The notes under the pieces: generated by a model
The model's input: only the letters and a program-made list of their open reading frames with translations
Databases searched by the model: none
What the model was told of the DNA's origin: nothing
From: Bacillota bacterium
GTDB taxonomy: Bacteria; Bacillota; SHA-98; Ch115; JABLXJ01
Assembly: GCA_013178125.1 (NCBI GenBank)
Contig: JABLXJ010000002.1
Coordinates: 1 to 64,000, forward strand
Direction of reading: 5' to 3'
DNA: 64,000 bases
Shown here: positions 29,554 through 57,265 of the stretch, one piece after another
Numbering within the stretch: position 1 is the first letter of the stretch
Layout of the letters: each line of letters opens with the position of its first letter
Translations under genes and position numbers: made by a program

Positions 29554-30990
29554 CTATTGCTCCTCCGTCGATATCCTCGCCAGATTTGCCTTGGCTAACC
29601 TGGCTGTGCGCCTAGCGAGCTCAGAGATCGAAACCTTGTGGTAGCCTGCAACAACGCTTTCAACTGTATCATTTAACGGCTCAGCCCAGGACTTGGGAAG
29701 CCCCCGTGCGCCCAGGATAGCACCCAGGATCGATCCTGTTGTCGCACCGTTACAGTCGGTATCAAGGCCACCCATTACCGCTATCCCGATCGATTTGCCG
29801 AAGTCCCCCTCCCCATGAAGGAGTGCCATGATAACGATAGAGGCATTGTTAATTGTATGAACCCAGTTATAATGCCCATATGCTGCCATGATTTCATTCC
29901 AGGTTCCCTGCCAGGTGGGGAACTGCTGGCTCCACCTGACCACGTTTCTGATAGCCTCCGCCAGCCGTGATTTCTCGGGAATCTCGGACAAGCCGATTTC
30001 AACGACCTCTTTCACGCTGCTCGTCTTGAATGCAGCCGCCAGCATCGCTGAGACGAACATCTCGCCGTAGACCCCGTTTTTGACATGGGATAGCGTTGCG
30101 TCACGGTAGGCAAGCTCTGCAGCACGTTCGGGCTGCCCTGGATTTACATAACCCCATATATCCGCCCTGATTTGGGCGCCTATCCATTCTCTATATGGGT
30201 TCTGATGGGTGGCGGAGCGGGGCGGCGTGATGCGATTAACCAGGTTTTTGTAGGCGACCCGTTCCGCTGTATAAGTTAAGAGGTACGGGAGCCTTGCGAG
30301 CCACTCCTGGGCGATGTGATCCGTAGTGAAATCGAAGCCGTAGGTATCCAGGATATGCAAGCCAAGAATAGTATAGTCTATGTCATCGTCGCGGAGCATA
30401 TGCTCGAAAGAGCCTTTCAGAGCTTTAGGCTCCCGGATGGTGGGCAAGTTATCGCGATTGCACAAGCCCGGGGGCATTGGCGGAAAGAAGTCCTCGAGCG
30501 GATACGCGCCTACAGCCCTGAGGTAAGTCTCGATATCCTTCTTTGTCCACCCCTCTACCGGCTTCCCGAGCAGGCATCCGGCGCAGCGCCCGAGCCAGGC
30601 ACCATATATCTTGTCAAATAAAGCCTCATCTGATAGGGCCTCATCTAACGGTCCAAAATCTAGCGCCTCCCCAGCCTCTCCGGCCACTTTACGACCATTG
30701 AGTTGGCCCTTCTTCTTTGGTCGAGAGGCCTTGATATCACCGAGCGATAATGGCTCGTAATACGGAAAGCGTGGCTTCACCGAGAGGCATTCAGATGTTG
30801 GGGTTGGGTACAGGTCGTCCAGGTTTTTCTCTGGCAGAGCATTTCCTGCTCCTTCCGACAGCTCACTGGCCGGTGGTATACCAGATATATCATTGAATGA
30901 TCTTCGTAAATCCCCGGTTTCATAGCCTTCCTCTTCTAACTGGATGAGTTCATGGTTTAGCAGGATTCTTATATTAGTATAGTCTATCAA
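29554..30990 (-). CDS. ADP-ribosylglycohydrolase family protein with N-terminal accessory domain
   Basis: Residues about 125-470 form an ARH (DraG-like) all-helical fold: KIYGAWLGRCAGCLLGKPVEG at the start, the metal-site segment DDDIDYT (201-207) and GGLDTDCNGAT (407-417). Characterised ARH proteins use two Mg ions to hydrolyse ADP-ribose or related N/O-glycosidic bonds; this DTDC subfamily has no substrate that I know. Residues 1-120 share a pattern with the linker of the XRE-ARH protein at 34407-36053. Start is TTG 30990, with AAGGGAGA 7 nt upstream. It ends the ABC transporter operon and is convergent with rlmB. Confidence 0.85.
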   Translation of the reverse strand: MIDYTNIRILLNHELIQLEEEGYETGDLRRSFNDISGIPPASELSEGAGNALPEKNLDDLYPTPTSECLSVKPRFPYYEPLSLGDIKASRPKKKGQLNGRKVAGEAGEALDFGPLDEALSDEALFDKIYGAWLGRCAGCLLGKPVEGWTKKDIETYLRAVGAYPLEDFFPPMPPGLCNRDNLPTIREPKALKGSFEHMLRDDDIDYTILGLHILDTYGFDFTTDHIAQEWLARLPYLLTYTAERVAYKNLVNRITPPRSATHQNPYREWIGAQIRADIWGYVNPGQPERAAELAYRDATLSHVKNGVYGEMFVSAMLAAAFKTSSVKEVVEIGLSEIPEKSRLAEAIRNVVRWSQQFPTWQGTWNEIMAAYGHYNWVHTINNASIVIMALLHGEGDFGKSIGIAVMGGLDTDCNGATTGSILGAILGARGLPKSWAEPLNDTVESVVAGYHKVSISELARRTARLAKANLARISTEEQ

Positions 30991-31046
30991 ATTCAGTCTC
31001 CCTTTCTGTGTAGTTTTCTACGGAAAATGCTTCCATAGCTTGCAGC

Positions 31047-31889
31047 TTAGATCTTCAGGCCCCCTGCTGTCATGCCTTCGATGAATCGACGTTGAAGCAG
31101 CAGGAATATACTTACAATTGGAGCCGCCAGAATGGTAGCGCCAGCCATCATCAGCCCCCATTCAGCCGTGTATCTCCCGCTGAATGTAAAGAAACGGATA
31201 GTTGCGGTCTGAAGCGCCTCATTATGTAAGAACGTGACCGCCAGTATGAATTCGTTCCAACTCCACATACCCACTACAAGGATAACGGTGAAGAAAGCCG
31301 GCATCGCAAGCGGAGCCATAATGAGCCAGAATATCTGCCAGTCGGATGCTCCATCTACGCGCGCTGCGTCCTCGAAGTCCTGGGGAATCCCCAGGAAATA
31401 GGATCGCAGCAGGAAAATCGAGAATGGTGTATATATGGCCCAGTAAATCACCACGAGTCCAAAAATACTGTTGGTTAAACCTATTCGCTCGAATAGAAAG
31501 AAGAGCGGTATGATGAAAAGCTGGACAGGTATAGTAGTGCATGCCAGGAAATATAAAGTCAAGAGTTCCCATCCGGGCACTTTTACGCGTGCTAGGGCAT
31601 ATGCGGCGAGCCCTGCGATGATACATACGCCGCCGACCGTTAACCCAACTATAATCGAGGTATTCAATAAAGCATGGCCGAGCCCTCCCTGGTTCCAGGC
31701 GTTCAGGTAGTTTTCGAAATGGGGAATTGTAGGGAGGCCTACTGGATTCCTGGCCATCTCGGATCGCGTTTTCAGGGAGTTAAGGAGCATTATTATAAGC
31801 GGCCCGAGGGAAAAGGACGCCAGGACAATCAAGACAAGGTGGCTTAGCACATCATATGTAGCAGGTTTGGGTTCGGAGGGGTATTTCAA
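31047..31889 (-). CDS. carbohydrate ABC transporter permease (MalG/UgpE type)
   Basis: One of two inner-membrane subunits of a sugar-type importer. It has six hydrophobic helices and the EAA-loop region (DAARVDGASDWQIFWLIMAPL near residue 190) that docks an ATPase. TTG 31889 overlaps the stop of the partner permease and has GGGGTG at good spacing; this gives 280 aa, the normal length. The open frame continues upstream, but that part is the partner gene in another frame. No ATPase gene accompanies the pair, so a shared MsiK-like ATPase encoded elsewhere is likely. Confidence 0.88.
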   Translation of the reverse strand: MKYPSEPKPATYDVLSHLVLIVLASFSLGPLIIMLLNSLKTRSEMARNPVGLPTIPHFENYLNAWNQGGLGHALLNTSIIVGLTVGGVCIIAGLAAYALARVKVPGWELLTLYFLACTTIPVQLFIIPLFFLFERIGLTNSIFGLVVIYWAIYTPFSIFLLRSYFLGIPQDFEDAARVDGASDWQIFWLIMAPLAMPAFFTVILVVGMWSWNEFILAVTFLHNEALQTATIRFFTFSGRYTAEWGLMMAGATILAAPIVSIFLLLQRRFIEGMTAGGLKI

Positions 31890-32797
31890 ATTTCCCACCC
31901 CTTTCGCTGCAAGTAAATGTAAAAGGCGATGGCTATTCCCCCGATCAGACTCATTGTAAGCCCAACAGCGGATGCCTGGCCAGCCTGAAACGTATAGAAC
32001 GCACGTTTGTAGGTTAGAGTTGCCAGGACTTCCGTGGAGTAGCCAGGACCACCTCTTGTCAATATGTAAATGAAGTCGAACACCAGGAATGACCAGATGA
32101 TAGTCATTAGGAGCATAAAGACCAGCGTGGGACGTATGAGAGGGAAGCTGATATAGCGAAACTGTTGCCATCGATTAGCCCCCTCGACGCGCGCGGCTTG
32201 ATACAAGATGGGATCGATCTGCTGCATGGCGACGAGGAAGACGACTGCAAGGAAACCCCACCAATGCCAGTTATCAACAAAAGCGATGGAGTAGAGGGCA
32301 ATCTTGGGATTACCGAGGAAGTCAGCCGACATAAATGGCAGGCCATGATTTGCGAGCCATGCCGCAACACCAGCGATGGGGTGAAAAATGCTCTGTTGCC
32401 AGATCCTCGCGCTTACCGCGGTAGCGACGACTACAGGTATAAAGTAGGTGGTCCTGTAGACTGTGGCTCCTCTTTTCACCATGAACATCAGGTTCGCGGC
32501 GATCAGACCCATTATTACTGGAACTGTCAGGAAGATCAACGTCCAACGGGCATTATTGTATATGGCGCTCCAAAATACCTCGTCTTTCAATAACGAAGCG
32601 AAATTAGAAACGCCAATGAATTTGGGAGTCGCGAGGCCGTTCCAATCCATAAAGGCGAGAACCACCGTGGCGATGGAAGGACCGAGGATAACCAATACAT
32701 TCACCGAAAGCGCTGGAAGCAAGAAAAGCCATGCTGTTCTTTTGAGGTGACGCACCCCGTGGTTGCCATGCGATGATTCGATTCCACGTCTTGCCAT
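31886..32797 (-). CDS. sugar ABC transporter permease (MalF/UgpA type)
   Basis: The second permease subunit: an N-terminal helix (TAWLFLLPALSVNVLVIL) plus five more, with the EAA loop YQAARVEGANRWQQFRYISF near residue 205. Length 303 aa is normal. It follows the solute-binding protein gene after a gap with two hairpins and overlaps the next permease by 4 bp. Confidence 0.88.
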   Translation of the reverse strand: MARRGIESSHGNHGVRHLKRTAWLFLLPALSVNVLVILGPSIATVVLAFMDWNGLATPKFIGVSNFASLLKDEVFWSAIYNNARWTLIFLTVPVIMGLIAANLMFMVKRGATVYRTTYFIPVVVATAVSARIWQQSIFHPIAGVAAWLANHGLPFMSADFLGNPKIALYSIAFVDNWHWWGFLAVVFLVAMQQIDPILYQAARVEGANRWQQFRYISFPLIRPTLVFMLLMTIIWSFLVFDFIYILTRGGPGYSTEVLATLTYKRAFYTFQAGQASAVGLTMSLIGGIAIAFYIYLQRKGWEI

Positions 32798-32807
32798 AAT
32801 AATAGAT

Positions 32808-32853
32808 ACCCCCGTAGGCGGGGGTCAAGGGACGCGAGCATACCCCTTGACCC
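32808..32853. other. paired hairpins between binding-protein and permease genes
   Basis: ACCCCCG (32808-32814) pairs with CGGGGGT (32819-32825), and GGGTCAAGGG (32822-32831) pairs exactly with CCCTTGACCC (32844-32853); the two stems share bases and cannot both form. On the minus-strand transcript they lie between the binding-protein stop and the permease start, where such stems often protect or attenuate mRNA so that the binding protein is made in excess. Confidence 0.65.
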
Positions 32854-32914
32854 GCAGTGTCAATCTTGGCGATCTGCTGCTAGGTTAGGTTGGCTATCTA
32901 GATAACTCACATAT

Positions 32915-34240
32915 TTATTTTGCTCGCTTGGGTATGGGAGGGACGCTGCCCGCGGCGCGCTCCTCAGCGAAGAGTGTTTGGACCTTCTGCATATATTGAG
33001 CTGGGGTGATTTTGCCAAGCCAGACTTGCTCAATTCCTTCTATAATCCACTGTTCGGTTTTTACGGGCCAAAACGTCCAGGTCGTGTAACCGTAGTTGCC
33101 ACTAGCTGCGGCCTTTGCGACCGTTTCCACATGTCTTGCGTACCGCGGGTCTGCCTCCTTCGGGAAGTCACTCATTGTCGTTGTGGTAATAGGTTGGTTC
33201 CATTCGCCTTGCCAGGTAACGTTCATACGGGCAGCTCGTTTAGGATCGGCAAAGAGCCAGTTGATTGCCTCGGCGGCCGCGTCGGAGTTTTTGGATGACG
33301 CATTTATTGATAAAGTTGTTCCGATCCCAAGGTCGTAAAACTCCGCAGGGACTCCTGAGCGCAGAGCAGGGAATGGAGCCCAATCCCAATCGTTACCCGT
33401 ACCTTTGAAGTACTCGTTCATCCATTGGAATCCCCAGGTGCCTATCATGCTCATACCAGCCTTGCCGGTGGCAAGCAATGTTACGAAATCTTCATTCGCG
33501 AGCGAGAAATAATTTGAACCGCCGATCCAGCCTTTTTGGTAAAAATCATTTAACATTTTTACGGCGTCAATAAAGATCGGGTCGTCCCACCGCAGCTGAC
33601 CAGTAAGGGCTTTATAGACGTTTTCAGGGCCGGCGTAGTGGTTTAAGAATAGACCTACATAATGCTCGTTGTTGCCGCGCCAGCTTGAATTCCCCTGGGC
33701 GAATGGGATTATGCCCTTCGCTTGCATCTTCTTGCACACGTCGAGGAGTTCGCTGATATTTGTGGGGACCTTCCAGCTGTTTTTCTGGAACAGGGTCTTG
33801 TTATAGAAGAGAACCATCGCCTCATAAGTTTTTGGCACCGAGTAGACCTTGCCTTCCACGGAAGATATATCTAACATCATCGGGATGAACATCTTGTCCC
33901 ACTTATAGAGCTTTATGTATTTGTTGAGTGGTAAGAGGTGCCCTGCCTTAGCATATTCCTGAGCGTAGGTCGGCCCCGGTGTCATGACGATGTCGGGCCC
34001 CGAATTTGCCAGTACCGCCGTGCGTAGAACTCTATCCAGATCCGGCTCGATTGTGAGCTCCAAGCGGATATCAGGGTGGGCCTTGTTAAAGGGGTCGATC
34101 ATAATCTCACGTAGAGCCTTCTCATATTGGGGTTCAGCGTTCTCGTACCACCAGCTTATCTTGGTTTGCGCCTGCGCTACAACGCCAATAGTAAAGAACA
34201 TGCATACAATAAGTGAAATCGTAATAAAGTGCCTTTTCAT
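32915..34240 (-). CDS. extracellular solute-binding protein (family 1, sugar type)
   Basis: The secreted substrate receptor of the importer. A signal peptide (residues 1-25, ending VVAQA) is followed by the type 1 binding-protein fold (ISWWYENAEPQYEKALREIM). There is no lipobox, although a Gram-positive receptor would usually be a lipoprotein; with the secretin further on, this is compatible with a periplasm. ATG 34240 is chosen over an upstream in-frame start because AAGGAGG lies 9 nt before it. Length 441 aa is normal. The ligand is unknown. Confidence 0.9.
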   Translation of the reverse strand: MKRHFITISLIVCMFFTIGVVAQAQTKISWWYENAEPQYEKALREIMIDPFNKAHPDIRLELTIEPDLDRVLRTAVLANSGPDIVMTPGPTYAQEYAKAGHLLPLNKYIKLYKWDKMFIPMMLDISSVEGKVYSVPKTYEAMVLFYNKTLFQKNSWKVPTNISELLDVCKKMQAKGIIPFAQGNSSWRGNNEHYVGLFLNHYAGPENVYKALTGQLRWDDPIFIDAVKMLNDFYQKGWIGGSNYFSLANEDFVTLLATGKAGMSMIGTWGFQWMNEYFKGTGNDWDWAPFPALRSGVPAEFYDLGIGTTLSINASSKNSDAAAEAINWLFADPKRAARMNVTWQGEWNQPITTTTMSDFPKEADPRYARHVETVAKAAASGNYGYTTWTFWPVKTEQWIIEGIEQVWLGKITPAQYMQKVQTLFAEERAAGSVPPIPKRAK

Positions 34241-34406
34241 AACATATAGCCTCCTTATCTTTCTTAGCTTGATCCGCACATGACTTATGCATCTCTCTCG
34301 TTAGTAGACTACAGGTTTCCCGAATTCATCACAGGATTACCGTGAGCAATCAGACACTTAACGACCATTCTAGCCCGCTGGTTCCGTGGCAACTGGCTCC
34401 AAACGG

Positions 34407-36053
34407 TTAAATGGCGGTCACCTCCTCAGCCGGTCCGTGATCGGTCGTTCTCTTGCTTAATACCTCCTTCCCGATTCCGAGCGTCCATTTTGAAATGTCG
34501 GAAATATGAAGATGTTCAAAGCCGATAACCTCACTGTCGAGCCGGTCGCCGATCGGAGCTTTCCATTTGGCGGGGATCTGGCCGGCACCAATGATTGTGC
34601 CCACTATGGCGCCTGCCTGGCCGGCGGTGCAGTCGGTATCTAGGCCGCACATCGTGGTGATACAGATTGTTCTCTCGAAATCCCCTTCACCAAACCACAG
34701 CCCGATAACTACGGCGGCGATATTGGGGAAAGTATGGACCCAATGGTAATCAGCGAGGTAGCTTTGCTCCGCTTTGTTCCACGCCTCGCGCCAATCTTTT
34801 GATGTTCGTGACCATTCGATGGCGTCGCGCACGACCTTGGCAAACCTGCTCCTGGGAGGGACGAACCCCAGCCCTATCTTGAGAACTCGCCTCACGTCTT
34901 TCTCCACGAAGGCGAGGCTTATAAGTGCGGCGTCGTACATTTCGCCATAGACGCCCTCACGCTCGTGGGAAATGATCGCGTCCTTGTATGCATATTCGAT
35001 GGCGATCTCAGGGCGCCCCGGCGCGATAAATCCGCATACCTCGCCGCGCATTTGGGCTCCGATCCACTCACTGTAGGGGTTGTCGGTGGTTGCGGAGAGA
35101 GGGGGCATGAGGCCCTTCCTCAAATTATCCAGGGCAACCTTCTCGGCGGTGTAACCGATAGGGATATGTTCAAGCCATTCCAGGGCTAGGTCCTCGCTGG
35201 TCAAGTCTATCCCGTGTTCTTTCAAAGCATGTATGAAGACTATTTCGTAAGAGGTATCATCGTTGACGGTGCACGGGGTTGAAAGATAATTTGAGATCTC
35301 GCCGTAGGTCCCCGATATCTTTGCTGAAGGCCATCCCTCTACAGGCATCCCGAGGGCCCCGCCGATGCACTTTCCGAGCCACCCGCCGTAGATTTTATCG
35401 TAGTAGATTTGGGCGGCGGGTTCGAAGTCGGAGCGAATCTGATCTGTGCCTGGCGCAACAGTGGAAGGCAGAGAGGCCCTTATCTCCTCAAAGGTGGCTG
35501 GCGAATAGAAATCCGGGTCAGCGACCCTCGGCGCGTCATGCAGGGCTTTCCTGATCACCGCTATGTGCTTCAAGAGTTTCTCTGTTTCACCGGCTGCATA
35601 GAGATCATGACCTTTTGGTATAAGCGCCTCGGCCCTGCTTACATCGTAGCCTTTATGTTTTACTGCCTTGATTTCTTCAATGATGGGAAACTCAACGAGC
35701 CCATTTGAATAGTTGTGCTTCCACATCTGGAGGATATCCTGACGGCGTCTATCCATAAACGTACCCCCCACATGTTCCCTCAGGAGCACCGGCGCCTCGG
35801 CCGGGTTTTCAACTAATATTCTCCTGAGATCCGAAGGTATCTTTTCAGCTGAGAGAAGTAATTCGTCAACATTCTGGAGGTTGAAAACCTCGGCAATCCT
35901 CTTAATGAGGTTTTCAGAGGGTTTTTCGATTCCGCGTTCCAATTGACTTATGTAAACGTAGTGGACATCTAGGGAAGCCGCGAGTTTCCGTAAACTAAGA
36001 TTCCTGGACTTCCTCAGCTCGCGCAATCGTTGTCCAAAGGCATTAGATGACAA
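34407..36053 (-). CDS. XRE helix-turn-helix fused to an ADP-ribosylglycohydrolase domain
   Basis: Residues 5-60 are a Cro/CI-type HTH (FGQRLRELRKSRNLSLRKLA, then YISQLERG). Residues about 110-195 hold a linker (GYDVSRAEALIP, then YSPATFEEIRASLP) similar in pattern to the N-terminus of the ARH protein at 29554-30990. Residues about 215-525 are an ARH fold with NDDTSYE (264-270) and CGLDTDC (469-475). It is probably the cassette's regulator, sensing the compound that the cassette handles; the first metal motif differs from its partner, so it may bind without hydrolysing. Start is TTG 36053, with a G-run upstream at about 11 nt. Function is inferred. Confidence 0.85.
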   Translation of the reverse strand: MSSNAFGQRLRELRKSRNLSLRKLAASLDVHYVYISQLERGIEKPSENLIKRIAEVFNLQNVDELLLSAEKIPSDLRRILVENPAEAPVLLREHVGGTFMDRRRQDILQMWKHNYSNGLVEFPIIEEIKAVKHKGYDVSRAEALIPKGHDLYAAGETEKLLKHIAVIRKALHDAPRVADPDFYSPATFEEIRASLPSTVAPGTDQIRSDFEPAAQIYYDKIYGGWLGKCIGGALGMPVEGWPSAKISGTYGEISNYLSTPCTVNDDTSYEIVFIHALKEHGIDLTSEDLALEWLEHIPIGYTAEKVALDNLRKGLMPPLSATTDNPYSEWIGAQMRGEVCGFIAPGRPEIAIEYAYKDAIISHEREGVYGEMYDAALISLAFVEKDVRRVLKIGLGFVPPRSRFAKVVRDAIEWSRTSKDWREAWNKAEQSYLADYHWVHTFPNIAAVVIGLWFGEGDFERTICITTMCGLDTDCTAGQAGAIVGTIIGAGQIPAKWKAPIGDRLDSEVIGFEHLHISDISKWTLGIGKEVLSKRTTDHGPAEEVTAI

Positions 36054-36082: not shown

Positions 36083-36103
36083 TGTAAGGTTCCTTCCCTT
36101 ACA
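36083..36103. promoter_or_regulatory. 7+7 bp palindrome upstream of the XRE-ARH gene
   Basis: TGTAAGG (36083-36089) and CCTTACA (36097-36103) are exact inverted copies with a 7-bp spacer, 30 bp before the XRE-ARH start. This is a good candidate for its own operator. The rest of 36104-36380 shows no gene, only AT-rich and GGCGAA-repeat sequence. Confidence 0.5.
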
Positions 36104-39495: not shown

Positions 39496-39516
39496 ATTTC
39501 ATTGGTCAAATGAAAT
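39496..39516. promoter_or_regulatory. related palindrome over the iclR start, likely operator 2
   Basis: ATTTCATT (39496-39503) and AATGAAAT (39509-39516) are exact inverted copies around GGTCA and cover the iclR start codon. The half-sites equal those of the palindrome at 39396-39411, about 102 bp upstream, suggesting autoregulation by two bound dimers or a loop. Confidence 0.65.
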
Positions 39517-40337
39517 CCACGATGATAGAGGATAGTATGAGAACGGCAGATAATGGGAATCAGATAGCAGTGCCAGCTGTAGAGCGGGCTTTGAACATAC
39601 TCGAGTATCTAGGGGAAAAGGGTGCGCCAGCCACCCTTAAAGAGATTTCCTCTACATTGGGAATCCCTGCAGCTTCTACCTTTCGAATCGTTAGATACCT
39701 TTGCAGTCGTGGTTACATCGAGGAGGATGCGAACATACAAGGTCGATATGAGTTGGGATTGCAGTTGCTACGTTTAGCGCACCTCTTGGATAGGCGGCTG
39801 GATCTTAGAACTATAGCAGTATACCCTATGCGGAGGCTGGCCGAGGAGAGCGGCCAGACTGCCCAGTTAGGTATTCTACAAGGGTATGGGGTCATGTATA
39901 TTGATCAAGCCGAGCCACGCGAACCAGTTAGTATTATAGCCGCCCTCAGAACGATACTTCCCGTCAATGTGAGTGCTGCAGGCAAGGTCCTGGTTGCATA
40001 TCTACCGCCCAAGGAACAGGAAGAATTCCTAGAGAGAGCAGAGCTTCGTGCCCAGACCCCGAAGAGCATCACCGATAAGGCCAGCTTCAAAGCGGAGCTG
40101 GAAAGGGTGCGAGAGATGGGATTCGCCATTGATGACGAGGAATATGCCAGAGGGATCGGGTGTCTGGCTGTTCCCATCTTCGATCATACCGGCACGAACG
40201 TAGCGGCGGTGGGGATTACCGGGCATATCATAGATTATCGGGATAAAGATAGGCTGGGTTGTCTGATACAGCTAGTTCAGGAGGCTGCCGGGGAGATATC
40301 TGCTAAGATGGGATATGCCGGCGAGGTCCGGGCCTGA
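39510..40337 (+). CDS. IclR family transcriptional regulator
   Basis: A winged-helix HTH (residues about 18-80, VPAVERALNILEYLGEKG and TLKEISSTLGIPAASTFRI) is followed by an IclR effector-binding domain (about 95-270) with typical AAGKVLVAYLP and DDEEYARGIGCLAVPI segments. It heads the sugar operon and is its probable ligand-responsive regulator. ATG 39510 is used; ATGs at 39522 and 39537 are possible, the last preceded by GAGGAT. Length 275 aa is normal. The gap to the next gene (40338-40519) shows nothing of note. Confidence 0.9.
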   Translation: MKSTMIEDSMRTADNGNQIAVPAVERALNILEYLGEKGAPATLKEISSTLGIPAASTFRIVRYLCSRGYIEEDANIQGRYELGLQLLRLAHLLDRRLDLRTIAVYPMRRLAEESGQTAQLGILQGYGVMYIDQAEPREPVSIIAALRTILPVNVSAAGKVLVAYLPPKEQEEFLERAELRAQTPKSITDKASFKAELERVREMGFAIDDEEYARGIGCLAVPIFDHTGTNVAAVGITGHIIDYRDKDRLGCLIQLVQEAAGEISAKMGYAGEVRA

Positions 40338-40519
40338 TTCGATTACCATTGATTAGTGGTTCCAAGATGGAGGCTCGAGATGGAGGTGATGCTCTGGTCG
40401 GTAAGGGCGAATGGGTGCACTGCGTCTATGTTGGACAGGTCTGCGGGTCTACGGTATGAGCGCTGAGTTTTAGATTAAACACTGAGTCCCAGCTAGATCA
40501 AAAGTAGGGGGGTTATTAC

Positions 40520-41602
40520 ATGTCTAGACTAGCAAGAATATCCAAACTAGTCTTGCTAATATCCTGTTTCGCGTTATTGGTCGTAACGCTGTCATGCTTT
40601 GCAGCCACCAAACCGCGAAAGCTGACGATCGGTGCCATCGTGCCTACATTGAATCATGAATTCTGGAAGCGCTACGTCGAATTCATGAAAAAGGGTGCTC
40701 AAGAGCTGGGGGTTAATCTCATTGTATTAAATGCCGAGGATAGCGGGGATAAGTTGGTACAGTATATTGAGGATCTTGTCTCCCGCGGGGTGGACGGGTT
40801 GATCTATGTCCCATATTTTAATACCGGGCGCAAAGGGATCATGGAAGCAGCGCGTGCTAATATCCCAGTCATATGCACAGATACCTATCCGGAGAATCTG
40901 ACCCCCGGGAAGGAATTCAAGAATTACATATCGTTCATAGGCCCGAGCGACGAGAGCGCAGGCTATCAGATGGCGCTCGCCCTTTTTAAACATACACCCG
41001 CAGCCAAAGATGGCAAGAAATACATAGGCGTGGTCAATGGGACTCCGGGAACGTCGGTTGCGATCAACAGGAGAAAGGGCTTGGAGAAGGCACTTAAGGA
41101 ACACCCGGAAGTTGTTGTCGTCGGGGAGGTAGTAGGTTATTTCGTACGAGATAAGTCGCAGTCAGCGACCGAAGACCTGTATCAGGGCCATCCGGAAATC
41201 AAGGGGATTTGGGCCGCGAATGGCGGGACAGCTACGGGGGTTATAGCTGCACTGAAGAGCTTTGGTAAGAAACCAGGCAAGGATGTAATGGTAGTCGGCA
41301 TGGATTTGAATCCTGAGAATGTAGAGGCCGTAAAGGACGGAGAACTTCTTTTCGATATTGGAGGACACTGGCTGCAAGGGGGATTCGCCCTTGTAATAAT
41401 GTATGACTATCTACACGGCTACAAGGTGCGTCCCGAAGAGACCAGTGTTGAATTGAGTCTGTTGCCGGTTATGAAAGACACATATGACCGGTATATGAAG
41501 GATTATCCCAATGGAATGCTTAAATATGATTTCAAATCACATTCTCGTGTATATAACCCTTCAGCATCTCGCGCCATCGTCGAGTTAAAGTACAGTGAGT
41601 GA
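40520..41602 (+). CDS. sugar ABC transporter substrate-binding protein (RbsB/periplasmic LacI-type fold)
   Basis: Signal sequence (residues 1-28) with a Cys at 26 that is not in a canonical lipobox, then the type I binding fold: KLTIGAIVPTLNHEFWKRYV, DGLIYVPYF, NGGTATGVIAAL and VVGMDLNPENVEAV. It delivers a monosaccharide-like ligand to the permease. ATG 40520 has AGGGGGG at 7 nt. Length 360 aa. First transport gene of the operon and followed by a 12-bp-stem hairpin. Confidence 0.9.
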   Translation: MSRLARISKLVLLISCFALLVVTLSCFAATKPRKLTIGAIVPTLNHEFWKRYVEFMKKGAQELGVNLIVLNAEDSGDKLVQYIEDLVSRGVDGLIYVPYFNTGRKGIMEAARANIPVICTDTYPENLTPGKEFKNYISFIGPSDESAGYQMALALFKHTPAAKDGKKYIGVVNGTPGTSVAINRRKGLEKALKEHPEVVVVGEVVGYFVRDKSQSATEDLYQGHPEIKGIWAANGGTATGVIAALKSFGKKPGKDVMVVGMDLNPENVEAVKDGELLFDIGGHWLQGGFALVIMYDYLHGYKVRPEETSVELSLLPVMKDTYDRYMKDYPNGMLKYDFKSHSRVYNPSASRAIVELKYSE

Positions 41603-41670
41603 CCAACTATTGAGTTGACTATCTGAGGTGATTACTGCGGTAACCTGAGGTAGCGATCTCGTATTGACCG

Positions 41671-41699
41671 GGCAGGGGTACCAGCAAGGTACCCCTGCC
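41671..41699 (+). other. perfect 12-bp stem hairpin between binding-protein and ATPase genes
   Basis: GGCAGGGGTACC (41671-41682) and GGTACCCCTGCC (41688-41699) enclose a 5-nt loop, with no T-run after it. It fits an mRNA-protecting or partially terminating element that raises binding-protein levels over the downstream subunits. Confidence 0.75.
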
Positions 41700-41727
41700 T
41701 GTCGGGGCGGTTTAGGGGGGAGTCCGT

Positions 41728-43209
41728 GTGGAATTGATCGCGCACAATATCTGCAAATCCTTTGGCCCCATCAAGGCCCTCGATAACGTCACGATAGCCT
41801 TCAAAGCAGGAGAGGTAAAGGCCGTAGTTGGTGAGAACGGCGCCGGGAAATCTACTCTGGTAAAGATATTGGCAGGACTATACCGGCCGGACTCGGGTAC
41901 AGTGACCCTGGATGGAAGGTCCTATAACCCAGCCAGCTTAAATGATGCAGTGAAGAGCGGCGTTGCCATAGTCCTTCAGGAGACGACCATAAATCCCTGC
42001 CTTACCATAGCGGAGAATATATTTATAGATCGCCTTCGGGACTTTGTCAAGCCGAGTGGGCTAATTGATTGGGGCAAACTGAAGGCCGAAGCTCAAAACG
42101 TGCTCGATAGCCTTAACGCTGGCATTGATGTGAATTCAAATATCGAGGGTTTGGATCTGGGTCAATGGAAAATCATCGAGTTGGCCAGGGCTATTTCTCA
42201 TAAACCCAAGGTTCTATTTCTAGATGAGGTAACAGCATTCCTGGGAGCTCGTGAGGTGCCCGCTCTTCTAGGCATTGTTGCGGAGCTGAGAAAGCGGGGG
42301 ATAGCCATCGGCTACATATCCCATCATATGGGCGAGGTCTTCAAGATAGCCGATACGATAACCGTAATGAAGGATGGCAAATGGGTTGCAGACCGGAAGG
42401 TGTATGAAGTAACACGCCAGGAAATCGAGGCGATGATGGTCGGCAGGGACATAGGCGAGGAAATGTACCCGAAGCGGGATAACGAGCCTTCCACAGATAT
42501 GGTTTTATCCGTAGATAATCTCAAGGTCCCGGGTTCAGTAAACGGTATAAGCTTCGATTTGCACAGGGGAGAGGTGCTTGGGATCGGTGGATTGAAGGGT
42601 AGCGGCGGCGAGAGCATCCTTCGCGCGATCTATGGTGACATGCCTTTTGGTTCAGGCAAGATGGTCTTGGAGGGGGAACCTTTTTGTCCACGAGGCCCCT
42701 ACGATGCTGTGAAACATGGAATTGCCCTTGTCCCCGGGGAGAGGACCTTAGAGGGCTTGATTACAATCCTTTCAGTCATGTTCAATATGTCCCTCATAGC
42801 CATGCCTAAGAGGGGCCTTTTGCTGGATAGGGCCGCTGAAGCAAGACTTGCTAAAGCATATGTTGCGGAACTAATGATCAAAACGCCCGACGCCATGACT
42901 GCCTGCGCCAATTTGAGCGGTGGCAACGCCCAGAAGGTTGTTCTTGGCAAGTGCCTGGCCAGTAGACCCAGGGTGCTGCTCCTAAACAATCCAACCAGGG
43001 GAATAGACGTAGGCGCCCGGTATGAGATATATCACCTTATCAATAGACTAGCTTCTCAAGGGTTGTCGATTATACTTCTCAGTGAAGACCTCCCTGAACT
43101 CCTGTCAATGAGTGACCGCATCCTGATAATGCGTCAAGGGCATATTAATAGGTCTTTTGGTCGAGAGGATAAGCCCTCTGAAGAGGAAGTCATAAGCTAT
43201 ATGTTATAG
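41728..43209 (+). CDS. sugar ABC transporter ATP-binding protein (RbsA type, two domains)
   Basis: Two ABC modules in one chain. Module 1 has Walker A GENGAGKST near residue 37 and Walker B LFLDEVT; its signature is the variant LDLGQ. Module 2 has a degenerate Walker A (GLKGSGGES) and the signature LSGGNAQK, as is normal for RbsA-like proteins in which only one site is fully active. GTG 41728 has a G-rich ribosome binding site. Length 493 aa is normal. Confidence 0.93.
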   Translation: MELIAHNICKSFGPIKALDNVTIAFKAGEVKAVVGENGAGKSTLVKILAGLYRPDSGTVTLDGRSYNPASLNDAVKSGVAIVLQETTINPCLTIAENIFIDRLRDFVKPSGLIDWGKLKAEAQNVLDSLNAGIDVNSNIEGLDLGQWKIIELARAISHKPKVLFLDEVTAFLGAREVPALLGIVAELRKRGIAIGYISHHMGEVFKIADTITVMKDGKWVADRKVYEVTRQEIEAMMVGRDIGEEMYPKRDNEPSTDMVLSVDNLKVPGSVNGISFDLHRGEVLGIGGLKGSGGESILRAIYGDMPFGSGKMVLEGEPFCPRGPYDAVKHGIALVPGERTLEGLITILSVMFNMSLIAMPKRGLLLDRAAEARLAKAYVAELMIKTPDAMTACANLSGGNAQKVVLGKCLASRPRVLLLNNPTRGIDVGARYEIYHLINRLASQGLSIILLSEDLPELLSMSDRILIMRQGHINRSFGREDKPSEEEVISYML

Positions 43210-43280
43210 CAGGCGCTATCGGAGGGGAAAACACCCCTTATTTATTCCCGTATAGAGGCGAATGACAGAGGTGAGTCTTT

Positions 43281-44282
43281 ATGGAGGACAAGGTGAGCGG
43301 TGTATATGTGACAGCGGGGGAAGCTCCAACAGGAGTAAGGAAGGTGACGAAGATCCGATTCACTGCACGAAACTACTTCCCCCTTCTTGCTCTAGTTGTA
43401 TTATGCATAGTCTTCACCATCATGTCTCCGCGATTCCTGACGTTCAGAAATATGATCATCATCTTACAACAAGCTGTCATATTGCTTGTTGCCGGCCTGG
43501 GGATGACATTTGTCATATTGGGTGGTTCCATTGATTTGTCTGTCGGTTCCATTGTAGGAGTAACCGCTTTGACAGCGGCAATTTTCGCAGACAAGATCGG
43601 TGCGGCCGCCATTATCCCTGCGGGCCTGGTCGGCCTGATTTGCGGGACGATCAACGGCACCATCTTCGCCAAGGGTAAGGTGCCTTCCTTCATAGTCACT
43701 CTGGGGGGACTGGTAGCTTACAGAGGCATTGTATTGGCCATTACCATGGGGACACCGGTTCAAATCCTGAATGATACCTTTTTGACGGTGTTCAGCGGGC
43801 GGATCGCCGGGATTCCGAATTCCGTTATCATCGGGGCTGTTGTCACGGTCCTGGCATATTTTGCACTCAATAACCTTCCGTTTGGAAGAGAGGTCAGGGC
43901 TGTAGGAGGGGGTGAGAGAGTCGCGATCCTTAGCGGTATCAAGGTGGATAGGGTCAAGATATTGATGTTTTCCCTCTGTGGGGTCCTTAGTGGTCTGGCG
44001 GGGGCCTTGCAAGCTGGGAGGACATTAGCTGCGACTGCGACACTTGGCGATGGAATGGAACTGGATGTCATCGCCTCCGTGGTTGTTGGCGGAACCCCGC
44101 TTACCGGAGGAATCGGAAGCATTCAAGGAACGGTCTTGGGCACGCTGATCATCACTGCCTTGAGCAATGGTTTGAACATGGCCGGCGTATCGCCCTATAT
44201 ACAATATATTGTTAAGGGGCTTGTGCTGGTATCGGCGGTCTTTGTAACGATAGATAGATCAAAAATTGGAATCATCAAATGA
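43281..44282 (+). CDS. sugar ABC transporter permease (RbsC type)
   Basis: A polytopic membrane protein with 8-10 helices and the family motif GGSIDLSVGSIVG near residue 78, plus VVGGTPLTGGIGSIQGTVLG near residue 275. It forms the homodimeric channel for the RbsA-like ATPase. Start ATG 43281 follows GAGGTGAG. Length 333 aa is normal. The next gene begins about 30 bp after its stop. Confidence 0.93.
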   Translation: MEDKVSGVYVTAGEAPTGVRKVTKIRFTARNYFPLLALVVLCIVFTIMSPRFLTFRNMIIILQQAVILLVAGLGMTFVILGGSIDLSVGSIVGVTALTAAIFADKIGAAAIIPAGLVGLICGTINGTIFAKGKVPSFIVTLGGLVAYRGIVLAITMGTPVQILNDTFLTVFSGRIAGIPNSVIIGAVVTVLAYFALNNLPFGREVRAVGGGERVAILSGIKVDRVKILMFSLCGVLSGLAGALQAGRTLAATATLGDGMELDVIASVVVGGTPLTGGIGSIQGTVLGTLIITALSNGLNMAGVSPYIQYIVKGLVLVSAVFVTIDRSKIGIIK

Positions 44283-44313
44283 AATGAATATGCTAAGAAA
44301 TGGGGAAAGAAAT

Positions 44314-45747
44314 ATGAACAATACGAGCAATACGAGCGATAAGATGAGAATTGGTATCCTGGGCTTTTCTGATGGGGAGCCTGCAGTGCATGAGCAATTA
44401 AAGGATATTGTACAAAAGCAGATGGATGCAATTGCAGCTGCGCTCGAGAAGACAGGTAAGGTTGAGGTCGTGCGCGGCAGGGGTTTGGTCAATTCGGCCC
44501 GCATGGCCAAGGATGAGGCATTGAGAATGGTGGCGGAGGATGTCGATGGGGTCATCTTCTCCTACGGGGTGTTCAGCTTCCCGAACTTCTCCGCAATCGC
44601 TGCCAGGAATAGCAGGAGCCCCATTCTTCTCGCCGCCAATCTGAACCCCGATTGGCCCGGCATGGTTGCGATGTTGGCTGGCGGTGGGGCTCTAAACCAC
44701 CTCGGCATCAAGCATTTCAGGGTTGCGGGGGATATAGACGACCCGGAGGTGCTGGAAAAGGTGATGGCATTCTGCCGTTGCGCCAGGGTTGTTTCCAGGC
44801 TGAACGGGCAAACCTACGGCCTCATAGGCGGCAGGAGTCTCGGAATGTATAGTGCTACAGTTGATATGCAGACATGGCAGAGGATATTTGGTGTCGATAT
44901 CGAACATATAGATGAATCCGAAATCTTGCGCTTAGCAGATACTATCCCGGCTGAGAAGGTCGAGTCCGCTTTTAGATGGCTTACGGAGAAAGTTGGGGAT
45001 ATAAGATACGACGGGGCGAAATTGACTCCGGAAAAGCTGAAGACACAGATCCGGCATTATGAAGCGACCAAGAGGCTCATCAGGGAGAGGAATCTGGATT
45101 TCGTCGGCGTCAAGTGCCATTATGAAATGAGCCGCAATTATTGCACTCAATGCCTCTCGGCTGCGTTTTGCAATGATCCTTATGACTGGGATGGGCCTAA
45201 GGAACCGGTCGTTTTTGCCTGCGAGGCTGATTCTGATGCTGCGCTGACCATGCAGATATTGAAGGAATTGACCGGTGGCCCGGTTATCTTTATGGATGTC
45301 CGGCATTATGATGCCGACGAGGATGTAATGGTTTTCTGCAATTGCGGCTCCCAGTCCACATACTTTGCCAATAAGTCGATGGATCCTAGAGAGAACCTCA
45401 AATATGTGACCCTTTATCCTGCATTGGATATCTACTCTGGGGGTGGAGCCCATGTAAACCTGATGACCAGGGCTGGCAAGGCCACTATCGCCAGGTTGAA
45501 CAGGACAGAAGGCAAATACAGGATGACGATCACCCCGGCGGAATTCGTGGAGTTGCCTCGGGAGAAGATGAAAGAGACTACAGAGGAATGGCCTCATGTT
45601 TTCGCGAAGCTCCCGTTCGACCATGAGCTTTTCATCCAACAGTTTGATGCCAACCATTGTCATAGCGTATATGGGGACCATGTAGAGGATTTGAAGATGA
45701 TTTGTAGCATGCTGGGTATTGAAGTGGAGATTCTAGGTGAGCGGTAA
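44314..45747 (+). CDS. L-fucose isomerase-like protein (COG2407-type)
   Basis: Related to L-fucose/L-arabinose isomerases, metal-dependent aldose-ketose isomerases. Visible blocks are the N-terminal Rossmann-like part (MRIGILGFSDGEPAVH), GLIGGRSLGMY, the putative metal ligands in ACEAD and MDVRHYD, and the C-terminal GGGAHV. ATG 44314 is used because GGGGAAAG lies just before it; ATG 44345 (MRIGIL) and two ATGs near 44284 are alternatives. Length about 477 aa. It should turn the imported aldose into a ketose; the substrate is not known. Confidence 0.85.
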   Translation: MNNTSNTSDKMRIGILGFSDGEPAVHEQLKDIVQKQMDAIAAALEKTGKVEVVRGRGLVNSARMAKDEALRMVAEDVDGVIFSYGVFSFPNFSAIAARNSRSPILLAANLNPDWPGMVAMLAGGGALNHLGIKHFRVAGDIDDPEVLEKVMAFCRCARVVSRLNGQTYGLIGGRSLGMYSATVDMQTWQRIFGVDIEHIDESEILRLADTIPAEKVESAFRWLTEKVGDIRYDGAKLTPEKLKTQIRHYEATKRLIRERNLDFVGVKCHYEMSRNYCTQCLSAAFCNDPYDWDGPKEPVVFACEADSDAALTMQILKELTGGPVIFMDVRHYDADEDVMVFCNCGSQSTYFANKSMDPRENLKYVTLYPALDIYSGGGAHVNLMTRAGKATIARLNRTEGKYRMTITPAEFVELPREKMKETTEEWPHVFAKLPFDHELFIQQFDANHCHSVYGDHVEDLKMICSMLGIEVEILGER

Positions 45748-45939
45748 GCGGTAGCGGTGGGAACGGTAGGAATTGTACTTAAATTTTAATTGCCGCGTTC
45801 GCTTGCTTTATCGTATTCATCGCTCGTTTGCCTTGCTGCATTCACCTGCAGCGAAGGCTTGTCCAACCAAATACAACCAAATATAAATGTTTATCCAAAT
45901 GCCTGCGTAAAGGCTACCTGTGAGTTGGAGGCGATTCCC

Positions 45940-46401
45940 TTGCTCATAGCTATTGGTTGCGATGATGCGGGGTTTAAACTCAAGGAGATAATAAAGGGTT
46001 ATCTGGTGGAGTCGGGATATGAGGTCGAGGATTATGGCTGCTATACCGAGGATCCCGTCGATTACCCGGATATAGGCTATGCTGTGGCGGAGGGCGTGGC
46101 CTCTGGCAAACATGACCGCGGCATACTGATATGCGGTACCGGGATAGGCATGGCCATCACGGCAAACAAGGTTGCGGGGATCCGGGCGGCGGTCTGTCAT
46201 GACGTTTATTCAGCGGAGCGCGCCAGGAAGAGCAACGACGCCCAGATCATGACCCTTGGAGCGCGAGTTATTGGGCCTGAGCTTGCAAAGAAGCTGGTGT
46301 CCATATGGCTTGAATCCGAGTTTGCCGGGGGCAATTCCAAGAGAAAGGTCGACAAGATAATGCAGGTGGAGGCCAGGTACTTGCGGAGGGATGTGGGCTG
46401 A
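45940..46401 (+). CDS. rpiB: RpiB/LacAB family sugar-phosphate isomerase
   Basis: The fold of ribose-5-phosphate isomerase B: GCDDAGFKLKEIIKGYL at the N-terminus (usually CDHAG; here Asp replaces the His, so CDDAG), the anion hole GTGIGMAI with its preceding Cys (LICGTGIG) and NDAQIMTLGARVIG. TTG 45940 has GGAGG at 8 nt; upstream sequence in the same frame is not conserved. Length 153 aa. Within this operon it probably isomerises the ketose phosphate formed by DhaKL. The gap 45748-45939 shows no other feature. Confidence 0.88.
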   Translation: MLIAIGCDDAGFKLKEIIKGYLVESGYEVEDYGCYTEDPVDYPDIGYAVAEGVASGKHDRGILICGTGIGMAITANKVAGIRAAVCHDVYSAERARKSNDAQIMTLGARVIGPELAKKLVSIWLESEFAGGNSKRKVDKIMQVEARYLRRDVG

Positions 46402-46559
46402 GCATAGCAAATTCCGGCCGTAATATCCCTGCGAGCTTATCTAAGCTCGTTTTAGGCACTTTCAAGGAGAGCGTAGCGCAGGTTAGTGTAGCATAGGTTA
46501 TTTGGAAGACATATCTCCAAGGCCAATTCAGTAGAGATTTAGAACTGGGGTGGTAGATC

Positions 46560-47564
46560 TTGAAGAAGTTCATAAATAACCCTGATGTGGTTGTTGACGA
46601 AATGGTCGAGGGGTTTCTTTATGCGCACGGGGATCGCATAAGGAAGCTTGATGAGGCGAGGACCCTTGTGAGGGCCGATGCGCCGGTCAAGGGGAAGGTT
46701 GGGATAGTCACGGGCGGGGGCTCGGGCCATAAACCCTCGTTTATCGGGTATATAGGCAAGGGCATGCTGGACGCCGTCGCAGTCGGGGAGATATTCACCT
46801 CGCCACCCCCTGGTGCGGTATATGAGGCCATCAAGGCCACCGACGGTGGCAAGGGGGTGCTCCTCCTGCTCGGCAACTACGCAGGGGATGTCATGAATTT
46901 TGACATGGCCGCGGAGCTTGCGAGGGGCGAGGGAATAGAGGTTGAGCAATCCATAGCAACAGACGATGTGGGCTCGGGATTCAAGGATGATAAATCAAAG
47001 AGGAGGGGCGTAGTAGGGGAGTTTCTGATCTGGAAGATGACCGGGGCGATGGCTGAGCGCGGGGAGGGCTTATCTGAGGTTAAGAGGATAGCGGATAAGG
47101 TCAACCAGAACACCCGGACGATGGGGGTTGCGATATCCCCGTGCACTGTGCCCGCCGCAGGGAGGCCAACCTTTACGCTTGCAGATGATGAGATGGAGGT
47201 TGGGGTCGGCCACCACGGGGAGCCGGGGCTTAAGAGGGAGGAGCTAAGACCCGTGGATGAGATAGTGGATATGCTTTGTGCCGAGGTCATTCCCGATCTT
47301 CCATTTGAGGCTGGCGACGAGGTTGTAACGTTGATCAACGGCCTTGGAGCAACGCCCCAGCTCGAGCTCTACATAGCAAATAGGCGGCTCTTCAAGAACG
47401 TAACGGATAAGGGGATAAGGATATACAGGGCGCTTGTAGGGGAGTTTTTCACCGCCCTCGAGATGGCGGGATTCTCCATCACCCTGTGCAGGCTCGATGA
47501 TGAACTGAAGGAGCTGCTTGATGCTGAGGCATATACCCCGTATTTCACTCAGGCCGGGAGATAA
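46560..47564 (+). CDS. dhaK: dihydroxyacetone kinase subunit DhaK-like
   Basis: The substrate-binding kinase subunit, which holds the ketone covalently on a His. GGGSGHKPSFIGYIGKGML near residue 52 and the active-site GHHGEPG near residue 220 (usually GIHGEPG) are present. Start TTG 46560 with GGGGTGG upstream. Length 334 aa is normal. It is followed directly by DhaL. With an isomerase and RpiB beside it, the substrate may be a tetrulose or similar ketose rather than dihydroxyacetone. Confidence 0.92.
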   Translation: MKKFINNPDVVVDEMVEGFLYAHGDRIRKLDEARTLVRADAPVKGKVGIVTGGGSGHKPSFIGYIGKGMLDAVAVGEIFTSPPPGAVYEAIKATDGGKGVLLLLGNYAGDVMNFDMAAELARGEGIEVEQSIATDDVGSGFKDDKSKRRGVVGEFLIWKMTGAMAERGEGLSEVKRIADKVNQNTRTMGVAISPCTVPAAGRPTFTLADDEMEVGVGHHGEPGLKREELRPVDEIVDMLCAEVIPDLPFEAGDEVVTLINGLGATPQLELYIANRRLFKNVTDKGIRIYRALVGEFFTALEMAGFSITLCRLDDELKELLDAEAYTPYFTQAGR

Positions 47565-47586
47565 GGTTCAGGGGATCGGGAGAAAA

Positions 47587-48267
47587 ATGAGCATGGAGGC
47601 GCAAATGGGAGAGATGTGCATGGGCAACACGGGTGAGGTCGCGAAGATTACGAGTAAAGATGTGCTAGCCGCAATTTACAGGATATGCGATGCGGTTGAG
47701 GAGAATAAGGCATATCTCTGTGAGCTCGATGCCGCCCTGGGTGACGGGGATCACGGGGTGAGCATGTCCAAGAGCTTCCGGGCCGTGAGGGATAAGCTCC
47801 CGTCCCTTGAGGGGAAGGATGTGGGGGCCATCCTGAAGGCGGTGGGCATGGCGCTCATCTCTACAGTGGGAGGGGCCATGGGCCCGCTTTTCGGGAGCGC
47901 GTTCTTGAAGGCTGGGGAGAGGGCGGCCGGCAAGCAAGAGATAGGGCTGGATGACATAGTTGATATGTTCATTGCGGGTGAGGAGGCCATAGTAGCGCGG
48001 GGCAAGGCGAAGGTGGGGGATAAGACTCTTCTCGATACGGTGCATCCGGCGGTTGAGGCTATAAAGGAAGCGAGGGCGCGTGGATTATCGCTTGTTGAGG
48101 CCTTGAGAGAGGCTACTAAGGCTGCGGAGCTGGGCATGAAATCAACCGTAGGCATGATAGCCAGGGTGGGGCGGGCGAGCAGGCTGGGGGAGAGGACGAT
48201 AGGCCACCAGGACCCCGGTGCAACGTCCGCGTATATCATCATAAAAGCCGCGATGGAAGGACTTTAA
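47587..48267 (+). CDS. dhaL: dihydroxyacetone kinase subunit DhaL-like
   Basis: The nucleotide-binding helical-barrel subunit. The Mg-binding segment ALGDGDHGVSMSKSF and the later TVGGAMGPLFG loop are intact, and the C-terminus has DPGATS. ATG 47587 is preferred because GGGAG is just upstream. Length 226 aa. No DhaM phosphotransferase subunit is seen, so phosphate presumably comes straight from ATP, as in the known two-component erythrulose kinases. Last gene of the operon. Confidence 0.92.
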   Translation: MSMEAQMGEMCMGNTGEVAKITSKDVLAAIYRICDAVEENKAYLCELDAALGDGDHGVSMSKSFRAVRDKLPSLEGKDVGAILKAVGMALISTVGGAMGPLFGSAFLKAGERAAGKQEIGLDDIVDMFIAGEEAIVARGKAKVGDKTLLDTVHPAVEAIKEARARGLSLVEALREATKAAELGMKSTVGMIARVGRASRLGERTIGHQDPGATSAYIIIKAAMEGL

Positions 48268-49021: not shown

Positions 49022-49969
49022 TCACTGGGCCCAGTTCCCCATCTTCATGAAGGTCATGACTATCTGGATTGCTGCCGGCCCGAGAAGCACGATAAAGATA
49101 GTCGGGAATATGAAAAATACCAAGGGAATAAGCATTTTAATCGGGGCCTTCATTGCTGCCTCTTCAGCTTGTTGGCGCCTTGACATTCGCAATTGAGCTG
49201 CCTGTATTCTAAGCGTATTCGCGATGCCTACCCCGAGTTGGTCGGCCTGAATAATGGCAGCAATCAACGAAGAAACCTCTTGAATCTTTACACGCTCGGC
49301 AAGGGCTCGTAATGCTTCACGTCTAGATTTGCCCACCCTGATTTCCTGAAGCAGTATACCAAATTCGTCTGAAAGTGGCCCCTTCTTTCTCTCTATTACC
49401 TTTGCAAGTGCACTATCGAAACCCAATCCTGCTTCTACGCTTACAGTAAGAAGGTCAAGCACGTCAGGAAGGGCCTTCCTTATTTCCTTTTCCCGGCCGC
49501 GTTTCTTGCGCTTTATCATTATATCCGGGAGAAGAAGACCTATAACAAACCCAGAGATTCCCAAAATAATTGCCTTTAAAACTTCCACCTCACAAGCCAG
49601 CGAAAGGAGCAAAGTACCCAAAGGCAATGCAAATCCTGTAATCAGTTTTAGAACCAGGTACTCATTAGGGTTCATACTCCCCGTATTCCCTGCGCCCTCA
49701 AGCCTCTTTCGCACTGACTCTTTGACAGTTTTTGGCGCGATACCTGCAATAGCCTTAACAACCCTACGCAAAACCGGAAATACTACCCGTTCATTTATGG
49801 ATTCCGCGAGCTCTTTCTCGCGTTCCGAGGCCACACAAGAAGCTAATATCCTCCCCAATCTCCTTCTAACCCGGTTTTTGTCGGCCTCCAAATGAGACAC
49901 AATCCCTAGCGTGACCAATGTCACACTTGCAAAGACAAAGAAGGATATGACGTAAATGCCGTTTTGCAT
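49022..49969 (-). CDS. tadC: Tad pilus inner-membrane platform protein TadC
   Basis: A type II secretion F-domain protein that works with TadB and the TadA ATPase in Flp pilus assembly. Hydrophobic segments lie at residues 5-25, about 115-155 and 285-310; the cytoplasmic F domain includes LTVSVEAGLGFDSAL and LGVGIANTLRIQAAQLRMSRR. Length 315 aa is normal. The 63-bp gap to tadB contains nothing else. Confidence 0.92.
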   Translation of the reverse strand: MQNGIYVISFFVFASVTLVTLGIVSHLEADKNRVRRRLGRILASCVASEREKELAESINERVVFPVLRRVVKAIAGIAPKTVKESVRKRLEGAGNTGSMNPNEYLVLKLITGFALPLGTLLLSLACEVEVLKAIILGISGFVIGLLLPDIMIKRKKRGREKEIRKALPDVLDLLTVSVEAGLGFDSALAKVIERKKGPLSDEFGILLQEIRVGKSRREALRALAERVKIQEVSSLIAAIIQADQLGVGIANTLRIQAAQLRMSRRQQAEEAAMKAPIKMLIPLVFFIFPTIFIVLLGPAAIQIVMTFMKMGNWAQ

Positions 49970-50032
49970 ACTTCTTCACTTCCGTAAAGACTTATATAAA
50001 GCCGCTTTAGCATACGGCCTTAAACTTCGATC

Positions 50033-50995: not shown

Positions 50996-51015
50996 GAAAC
51001 TCCTCCTCATAATCC

Positions 51016-53651: not shown

Positions 53652-53661
53652 ACTTACCGCC

Positions 53662-57194: not shown

Positions 57195-57265
57195 ATCCCC
57201 TACACCCCTATTCCTGGTTTTCTTGCATAATTAACTACCTTGGTTAGGTCCATTCGAAAGATGCT

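Follow-up and report, generated by a model that had tools for sequence, protein, structure and literature searches.

Regulators of the one-component type whose sensor derives from an enzyme are already known, and the established role of ARH proteins is to erase ADP-ribosylation. In the NrtR/AraR family, a hydrolase fold is reused as a sensor, namely a Nudix fold that is joined to a winged HTH. NrtR senses ADP-ribose (PMC9503650), and BtAraR, which controls sugar genes, binds L-arabinose through its Nudix-like domain (PMC4666351). In Escherichia coli, the ARH protein YegU is encoded in the yegTUVW cluster together with a transporter of the nucleoside type, a putative sugar kinase, and a GntR regulator of its own, YegW, which is a repressor that senses ADP-glucose (PMC10819704). 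The XRE-cupin regulators of Pseudomonas also couple an XRE domain to a signal-sensing domain, a cupin instead of the ARH considered here (PMC7901475). The survey closest to this subject covers ARG systems whose regulators are separate proteins of the Nudix- or WYL-HTH type (PMC9503650), and a search of open-access literature found no description of an HTH-ARH or XRE-ARH regulator. The use of the ARH fold as a sensor, which arose twice independently, appears to be new.

The locus described here lies in a 64,000-nucleotide stretch of DNA from a Bacillota bacterium, which is called the window. Its positions 29554 to 36053 hold five open reading frames that, as the original prediction had stated, all run on one strand, the minus strand; each carries a Pfam domain above the curated cut-off. 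The XRE-ARH fusion (34407–36053, 548 amino acids, TTG start) combines an XRE-type HTH (HTH_3, 6.6e-12) with an ADP_ribosyl_GH domain (1.2e-53). It is followed by the solute-binding protein (SBP) of a CUT1-type ABC importer at 32915–34240 (SBP_bac_1, 5.6e-37, scored as 32915–34279; ATG 34240 is a better start than 34279), by permease 1 of the MalF/UgpA type at 31886–32797 (BPD_transp_1, 1.2e-8), and by permease 2 of the MalG/UgpE type at 31047–31898 (BPD_transp_1, 2e-17, scored as 31047–31931), whose start, judged from the start candidates, is probably GTG 31898. The stand-alone ARH protein ARH2 (29554–30990, 478 amino acids, PF03747 at 1.3e-55) completes the cluster and is the probable glycosidase of the pathway. 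An SBP_bac_1 protein and two BPD_transp_1 permeases thus stand within one cluster by Pfam, with the same SBP and F- and G-type permeases as in CUT1 sugar ABC importers; an ATPase gene is absent from the cluster. Compared to other CUT1 importers, the subfamily of the window is rare and occurs only beside ARH genes in the genomes searched. The gap between the XRE-ARH and SBP genes measures 166 nt, so a second promoter is possible. One flank holds, by sequence, cysteinyl-tRNA synthetase, thyX-like, and RNA methyltransferase-like genes and the other a SigH-like sigma factor, which we take to be housekeeping genes of a Bacillota-type chromosome. With such genes on both sides, the cluster looks like a metabolic island set between conserved genes.

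We read the XRE-ARH protein as a one-component regulator with an ARH-fold ligand domain that switches the regulator-importer-ARH cluster, and we give this reading a probability of roughly 0.7. That the protein looks like a regulator had been proposed before and agrees with its HTH_3 domain and with the recurrence of the HTH-ARH/importer pairing.

In the XRE-ARH protein, the HTH (residues 10–59) is followed by an N-terminal extension (about 98–210) and the ARH domain (223–495). The original prediction had noticed a pattern common to the linker of this protein and the N terminus of ARH2. The pattern is real but not specific to the pair, as it constitutes the N-terminal extension of an ARH subfamily and is also found in stand-alone ARHs such as those of G082, G092, and G095. 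The AlphaFold2 model (43 sequences) reaches a mean pLDDT of 89.7; values lie above 95 over most of the ARH part and are low at the joint (about residues 61–100), as expected for a flexible hinge. The predicted structure takes on the all-helical ARH fold, and its top Foldseek matches are MJ1187, DraG, and ARH3 (TM by target length 0.6–0.76), the best PDB match being MJ1187 (1t5j, TM 0.76 by target length). Sequence profiles return the same relatives. Both proteins score as ARH, as had been expected, with 183.1 and 189.6 bits for PF03747 at a curated cut-off of 26.2, and they are 36% identical over 401 amino acids.

The fold and the two-metal site residues are those of the ARH/DraG (ADP-ribosyl)hydrolases (PF03747). 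To compare the metal site, 119 ARH domains (8 HTH-ARHs and 111 other rows) were aligned, and residue roles were assigned from a review (PMC7050489). The flap glutamate E239, D265-D266, H363, and D472-x-D474 are kept in every HTH-ARH, of the XRE as well as the GntR type, and also in ARH2. The motif NDDTSYE in the regulator, compared with DDDIDYT in ARH2, had been taken as the sign of a catalytically altered copy; this idea fails, since the regulator copy retains all metal ligands. NDDT is the typical form of the XRE-ARH clade and DDDI that of the ARH2 clade, and position 264 is N in 73 and D in 34 of the other rows. On this residue comparison, a degraded sensor copy was rejected. The differences compared to ARH/DraG proteins are DTDC in place of DTDT, EWIGAQ-M/I-R in place of GNGAAMR, and the added N-terminal extension, to which the HTH-ARHs add the HTH fusion and the importer context. 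In 104 of the 111 other rows, Cys takes the place of the canonical Thr at the last motif position, so DTDC is a mark of the whole group and not of the regulators. Identity with DraG is not indicated by the NCBIfam equivalog TIGR02662, which gives 24.4 and 21.4 bits at a cut-off of 337. Compared to NrtR/AraR, the HTH-ARHs have an ARH fold, carry the XRE or GntR domain at the N terminus, and keep the catalytic residues; Pfam finds no Nudix domain in XRE-ARH, and the likeness is one of working principle, not of membership.

The search covered 149 relatives, 398 phylum genomes, four other groups, and the contig collection of GTDB, and it found eight HTH-ARH fusions in all. Three are XRE-ARHs, and five are of an unexpected GntR type. 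The XRE-ARH of a sister species (G001, contig DUMQ01000069.1) is an orthologue with 78–79% identity to that of the window, and the third, from G271, is 44% identical with a full HTH, ahead of which ATT is the only in-frame candidate start. GntR-ARHs occur in G399 (locus L109), G414, G418, G200, and G315. Pfam detects their GntR domain at 5.6e-20 in L109, 8e-19 in G418, 1e-16 in G200, and 8.3e-13 in G315, and the G414 protein was assigned through 89% identity to the HTH of L109. None of 400 Chloroflexota genomes, 396 Actinomycetota genomes, and 100 genomes from the group around locus L123 yielded an XRE- or GntR-type HTH-ARH; the long open frames inspected in these groups looked like read-through.

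In an ARH tree calculated with the PMSF mixture model, the XRE-ARHs fall into a clade of 69 rows (support 98/95), and the GntR-ARHs fall together with ARH2 of the window into a clade of 32 rows (support 100/100). The GntR-ARHs group among themselves with a support of 46/79. Because the two fusion types occupy separate, well-supported clades, the HTH was gained at least two times, and a single ancestral HTH-ARH is incompatible with this placement. By the same placement, the two ARHs of the window split long before the locus was assembled. They had been thought to be simple paralogues, one of which gained an HTH; this has to be abandoned with XRE-ARH and ARH2 in two old clades, and the tree likewise rules out a local duplication of one ARH. 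ARH2 is closest, at 55%, to a stand-alone ARH from within its own order.

Gene neighborhoods were scored by phmmer with representatives of Pfam-checked families, in stretches that vary in length from 4 to 64 kb (L190 ends within its SBP gene). HTH-ARH fusions and ABC genes do co-occur in other genomes, a point on which the original prediction had staked itself: all eight HTH-ARHs adjoin an SBP of the window's family, in six cases with both permeases. An SBP of this kind is found at 4 of 85 stand-alone ARH loci, namely 1 of 59 in the XRE-ARH clade and 3 of 26 in the ARH2 clade. The difference is significant by Fisher's test at 5e-9, and at 3e-6 when the eight loci, which are not independent, are collapsed to five lineages. 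A LacI gene is nearby at none of the eight HTH-ARH loci versus all four stand-alone loci with an SBP, and the simplest reading of this distribution is that the HTH-ARH replaces the LacI regulator.

The reverse search from the SBP leads to the same association. Relatives at E ≤ 1e-50 occur in 4 of the 398 phylum genomes (the window's own, G200, G315, and G092), each time beside an ARH, so the expectation that importer and ARH belong together is borne out. In G200 and G315 the partner is a GntR-ARH; in G092 it is a stand-alone ARH, accompanied by LacI and PfkB. The closest relatives of the SBP (44–57% identical) all adjoin a GntR-ARH, those at 43–45% outside the phylum set (L109, G418, and G412) likewise adjoin an ARH, and permease 1 is 44–58% identical to permeases that adjoin other ARHs. 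G315 repeats the window's order of HTH-ARH, SBP, permeases, and ARH, with a GntR-ARH at the head and an ARH of 816 amino acids at the far end. The importer partner varies, however: the one beside the XRE-ARH of G001 is not orthologous, its SBP being only 24% identical, and in G271 no permease is close by, although there are two SBP_bac_1 genes, of which one is divergent from the XRE-ARH gene.

The stand-alone relatives keep other company. Among the 59 nonredundant stand-alone loci of the XRE-ARH clade, 39 have at least one of a Bmp-type SBP, a nucleoside-type permease, a nucleoside hydrolase, and a nucleoside phosphorylase, and 52 have one of these or a PfkB-like kinase. The same phmmer search found PfkB and nucleoside genes at none of the eight HTH-ARH loci. 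A nucleoside importer was therefore rejected for the locus, as the search found neither a Bmp-type SBP nor a nucleoside permease, IUNH, PNP, or PfkB beside any HTH-ARH. Searched with the family representatives, the entire 64-kb window contains neither a PfkB-like kinase nor a nucleoside transporter. The yegTUVW-type cassette, in which a PfkB-like kinase and a nucleoside transporter accompany the ARH, is thus absent from the window and present with many stand-alone relatives; a further difference is that regulator and ARH are separate proteins in yegTUVW.

The predicted operator is the palindrome TGTAAGG-N7-CCTTACA at 36083–36103, 30–50 nt upstream of the XRE-ARH start. It is exact and occurs once in the window. 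A search of the 3.48 Mb genome for the palindrome with its flank, allowing up to three mismatches, returned no second site apart from its own reverse reading, and a regulon beyond the locus was rejected on the grounds of this uniqueness. The right half of the palindrome, TACACTACA, is present upstream of all three XRE-ARH genes; in a control with shuffled trios, even an 8-mer common to all three arose in only 2 of 5000 trials. Because the window and G001 are related, the sharing of TACACTACA is modest evidence for an operator. In G001 only one half is clear, the right one, which reads CCCTACACTACAT and sits where it does in the window, and G271 has TAGTGTAG-N6-CTACACTA between its XRE-ARH gene and the divergent SBP gene. 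The XRE site therefore differs among the three genomes, with varying spacing and no exact repeat. An 18-mer near-palindrome, TGTAAAATTGTATTACAA, lies upstream of three GntR-ARH genes at varying distances to the start and in surrounding DNA that has diverged. The XRE- and GntR-type sites suggest self-regulation close to the start codon, which is typical of repression.

The proposed mechanism builds on what was computed, namely the domains, the intact catalytic residues, the recurrence of HTH-ARH with an importer, the two HTH origins, and the shared operator-like sites. The XRE domain would bind the palindrome immediately upstream of its own gene, and the adjacent ABC importer would bring in a glycoside. 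The ARH-fold domain may then bind the imported ligand, or its product, through the intact two-metal site, which in ARH3 and ARH1 engages the 2″-OH of ribose (PMC7050489). Binding of a ligand of presumably ribosyl or other furanosyl type would alter DNA binding, so that the DNA is released and the cluster expressed, most likely by relief of self-repression. ARH2 would act as the enzyme that cleaves the imported compound, probably by hydrolysis. The ligand is likely a ribosyl, nucleoside-like, or other glycoside. A ribosyl compound is suggested by the nucleoside and PfkB neighbors in the stand-alone loci of the XRE-ARH clade, and other glycosides are conceivable because of the CUT1 importer type and of the downstream genes in L109, which encode an alpha-L-rhamnosidase and a zinc dehydrogenase. 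As a tentative generalization, the HTH-ARHs could be a class of transcription factors that evolved repeatedly and control the import of a ribosyl or other furanoside nutrient through an ARH-fold sensor that is catalytically intact and possibly destroys its own signal.

The XRE-ARH protein could also be a trigger enzyme, that is, a working glycohydrolase and regulator in one, in which catalysis or substrate turnover resets the switch. All catalytic and metal residues checked are kept in all eight fusions, and at several of the eight loci the stretch read contains no ARH gene besides the fusion, which may thus be the sole ARH of the pathway there. However, the window and G315 hold a second ARH in the same cluster, which suggests a division of labor, and the ligand-binding residues are the catalytic residues, so that their conservation cannot separate sensing from catalysis. 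We regard such a dual role as rather unlikely. The canonical metal site of the ARH fold and its nearest solved folds, ARH3, DraG, and MJ1187, would also suit a sensor of NAD/ADP-ribose status that responds to ADP-ribose or an ADP-ribosylated protein and not to an imported compound, and a precedent exists in NrtR, a Nudix regulator that senses ADP-ribose (PMC9503650). This is considerably less probable, as the linkage to a sugar-type importer is consistent, no NAD-linked gene was recognized at the HTH-ARH loci by inspection, the clade has EWIGAQ-M/I-R and DTDC and not the canonical GNGAAMR/DTDT, and the DraG equivalog scores stay at 21–24 bits.

XRE domains can have other functions, and the fusions might be metabolic ARH enzymes that carry an HTH without a regulatory role. 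Two independent HTH gains in the same importer context, conserved operator-like palindromes, and the absence of the usual LacI regulator make an incidental HTH very improbable. For the large bacterial ARH branch beside nucleoside and sugar importers, we found no known substrate, and the HTH fusions give a handle on this branch through a readable operator and a screenable importer binding protein. One identified ligand would point to the substrate class of many uncharacterized ARH enzymes. If the fused ARH domain also cleaves its ligand, the switch would erase its own signal.

Further observations concern ARH loci elsewhere. Stand-alone ARHs of the XRE-ARH clade adjoin a PfkB-like kinase almost without exception at L066, L068, L072, L074–L078, L080, L086, and L203–L215 (several of them Bipolaricaulota), and several of these loci also encode FAD-binding and Fe-S (CCG) proteins. 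At L164 (G282:C9) and L051 (G009:C5), three to four different ARH-like genes are adjacent and accompanied by LacI, a PfkB-like kinase, and CUT1 permeases. In Lachnospiraceae, a protein of 627 amino acids (L099:6773–8656, minus strand) unites a LacI regulator with a full PfkB kinase domain; its gene lies close to a cluster of nucleoside-type ABC and ARH genes, and it is another enzyme-regulator fusion in the same pathway.

Just beyond the end of the window, C2:64045–64506 (L055:10045–10506) encodes only the C-terminal half of an ARH (151 amino acids, PF03747 positions 133–284). No N-terminal ARH half was matched upstream, and the half-gene therefore looks like a remnant. A few kb further, L055:14949–19400 (C2 about 68949–73400) encodes a LacI-like regulator and a further CUT1 importer, whose SBP and permeases are 29% and 30–32% identical to those of the window, respectively. 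Within the window, a second sugar-type cluster at 39510–48267 on the plus strand comprises an IclR regulator, a Peripla_BP_4 binding protein, a sugar ABC ATPase, a BPD_transp_2 permease, an L-fucose-isomerase-family protein, and the dihydroxyacetone-kinase subunits Dak1 and Dak2. As the isomerase adjoins Dak1/Dak2, the cluster suggests a pathway for an unusual sugar. On the minus strand, positions 49022–58228 resemble by sequence a Tad/Flp-pilus cluster with two TadB/C-like membrane proteins, an ATPase, a secretin, and a pilus assembly protein.
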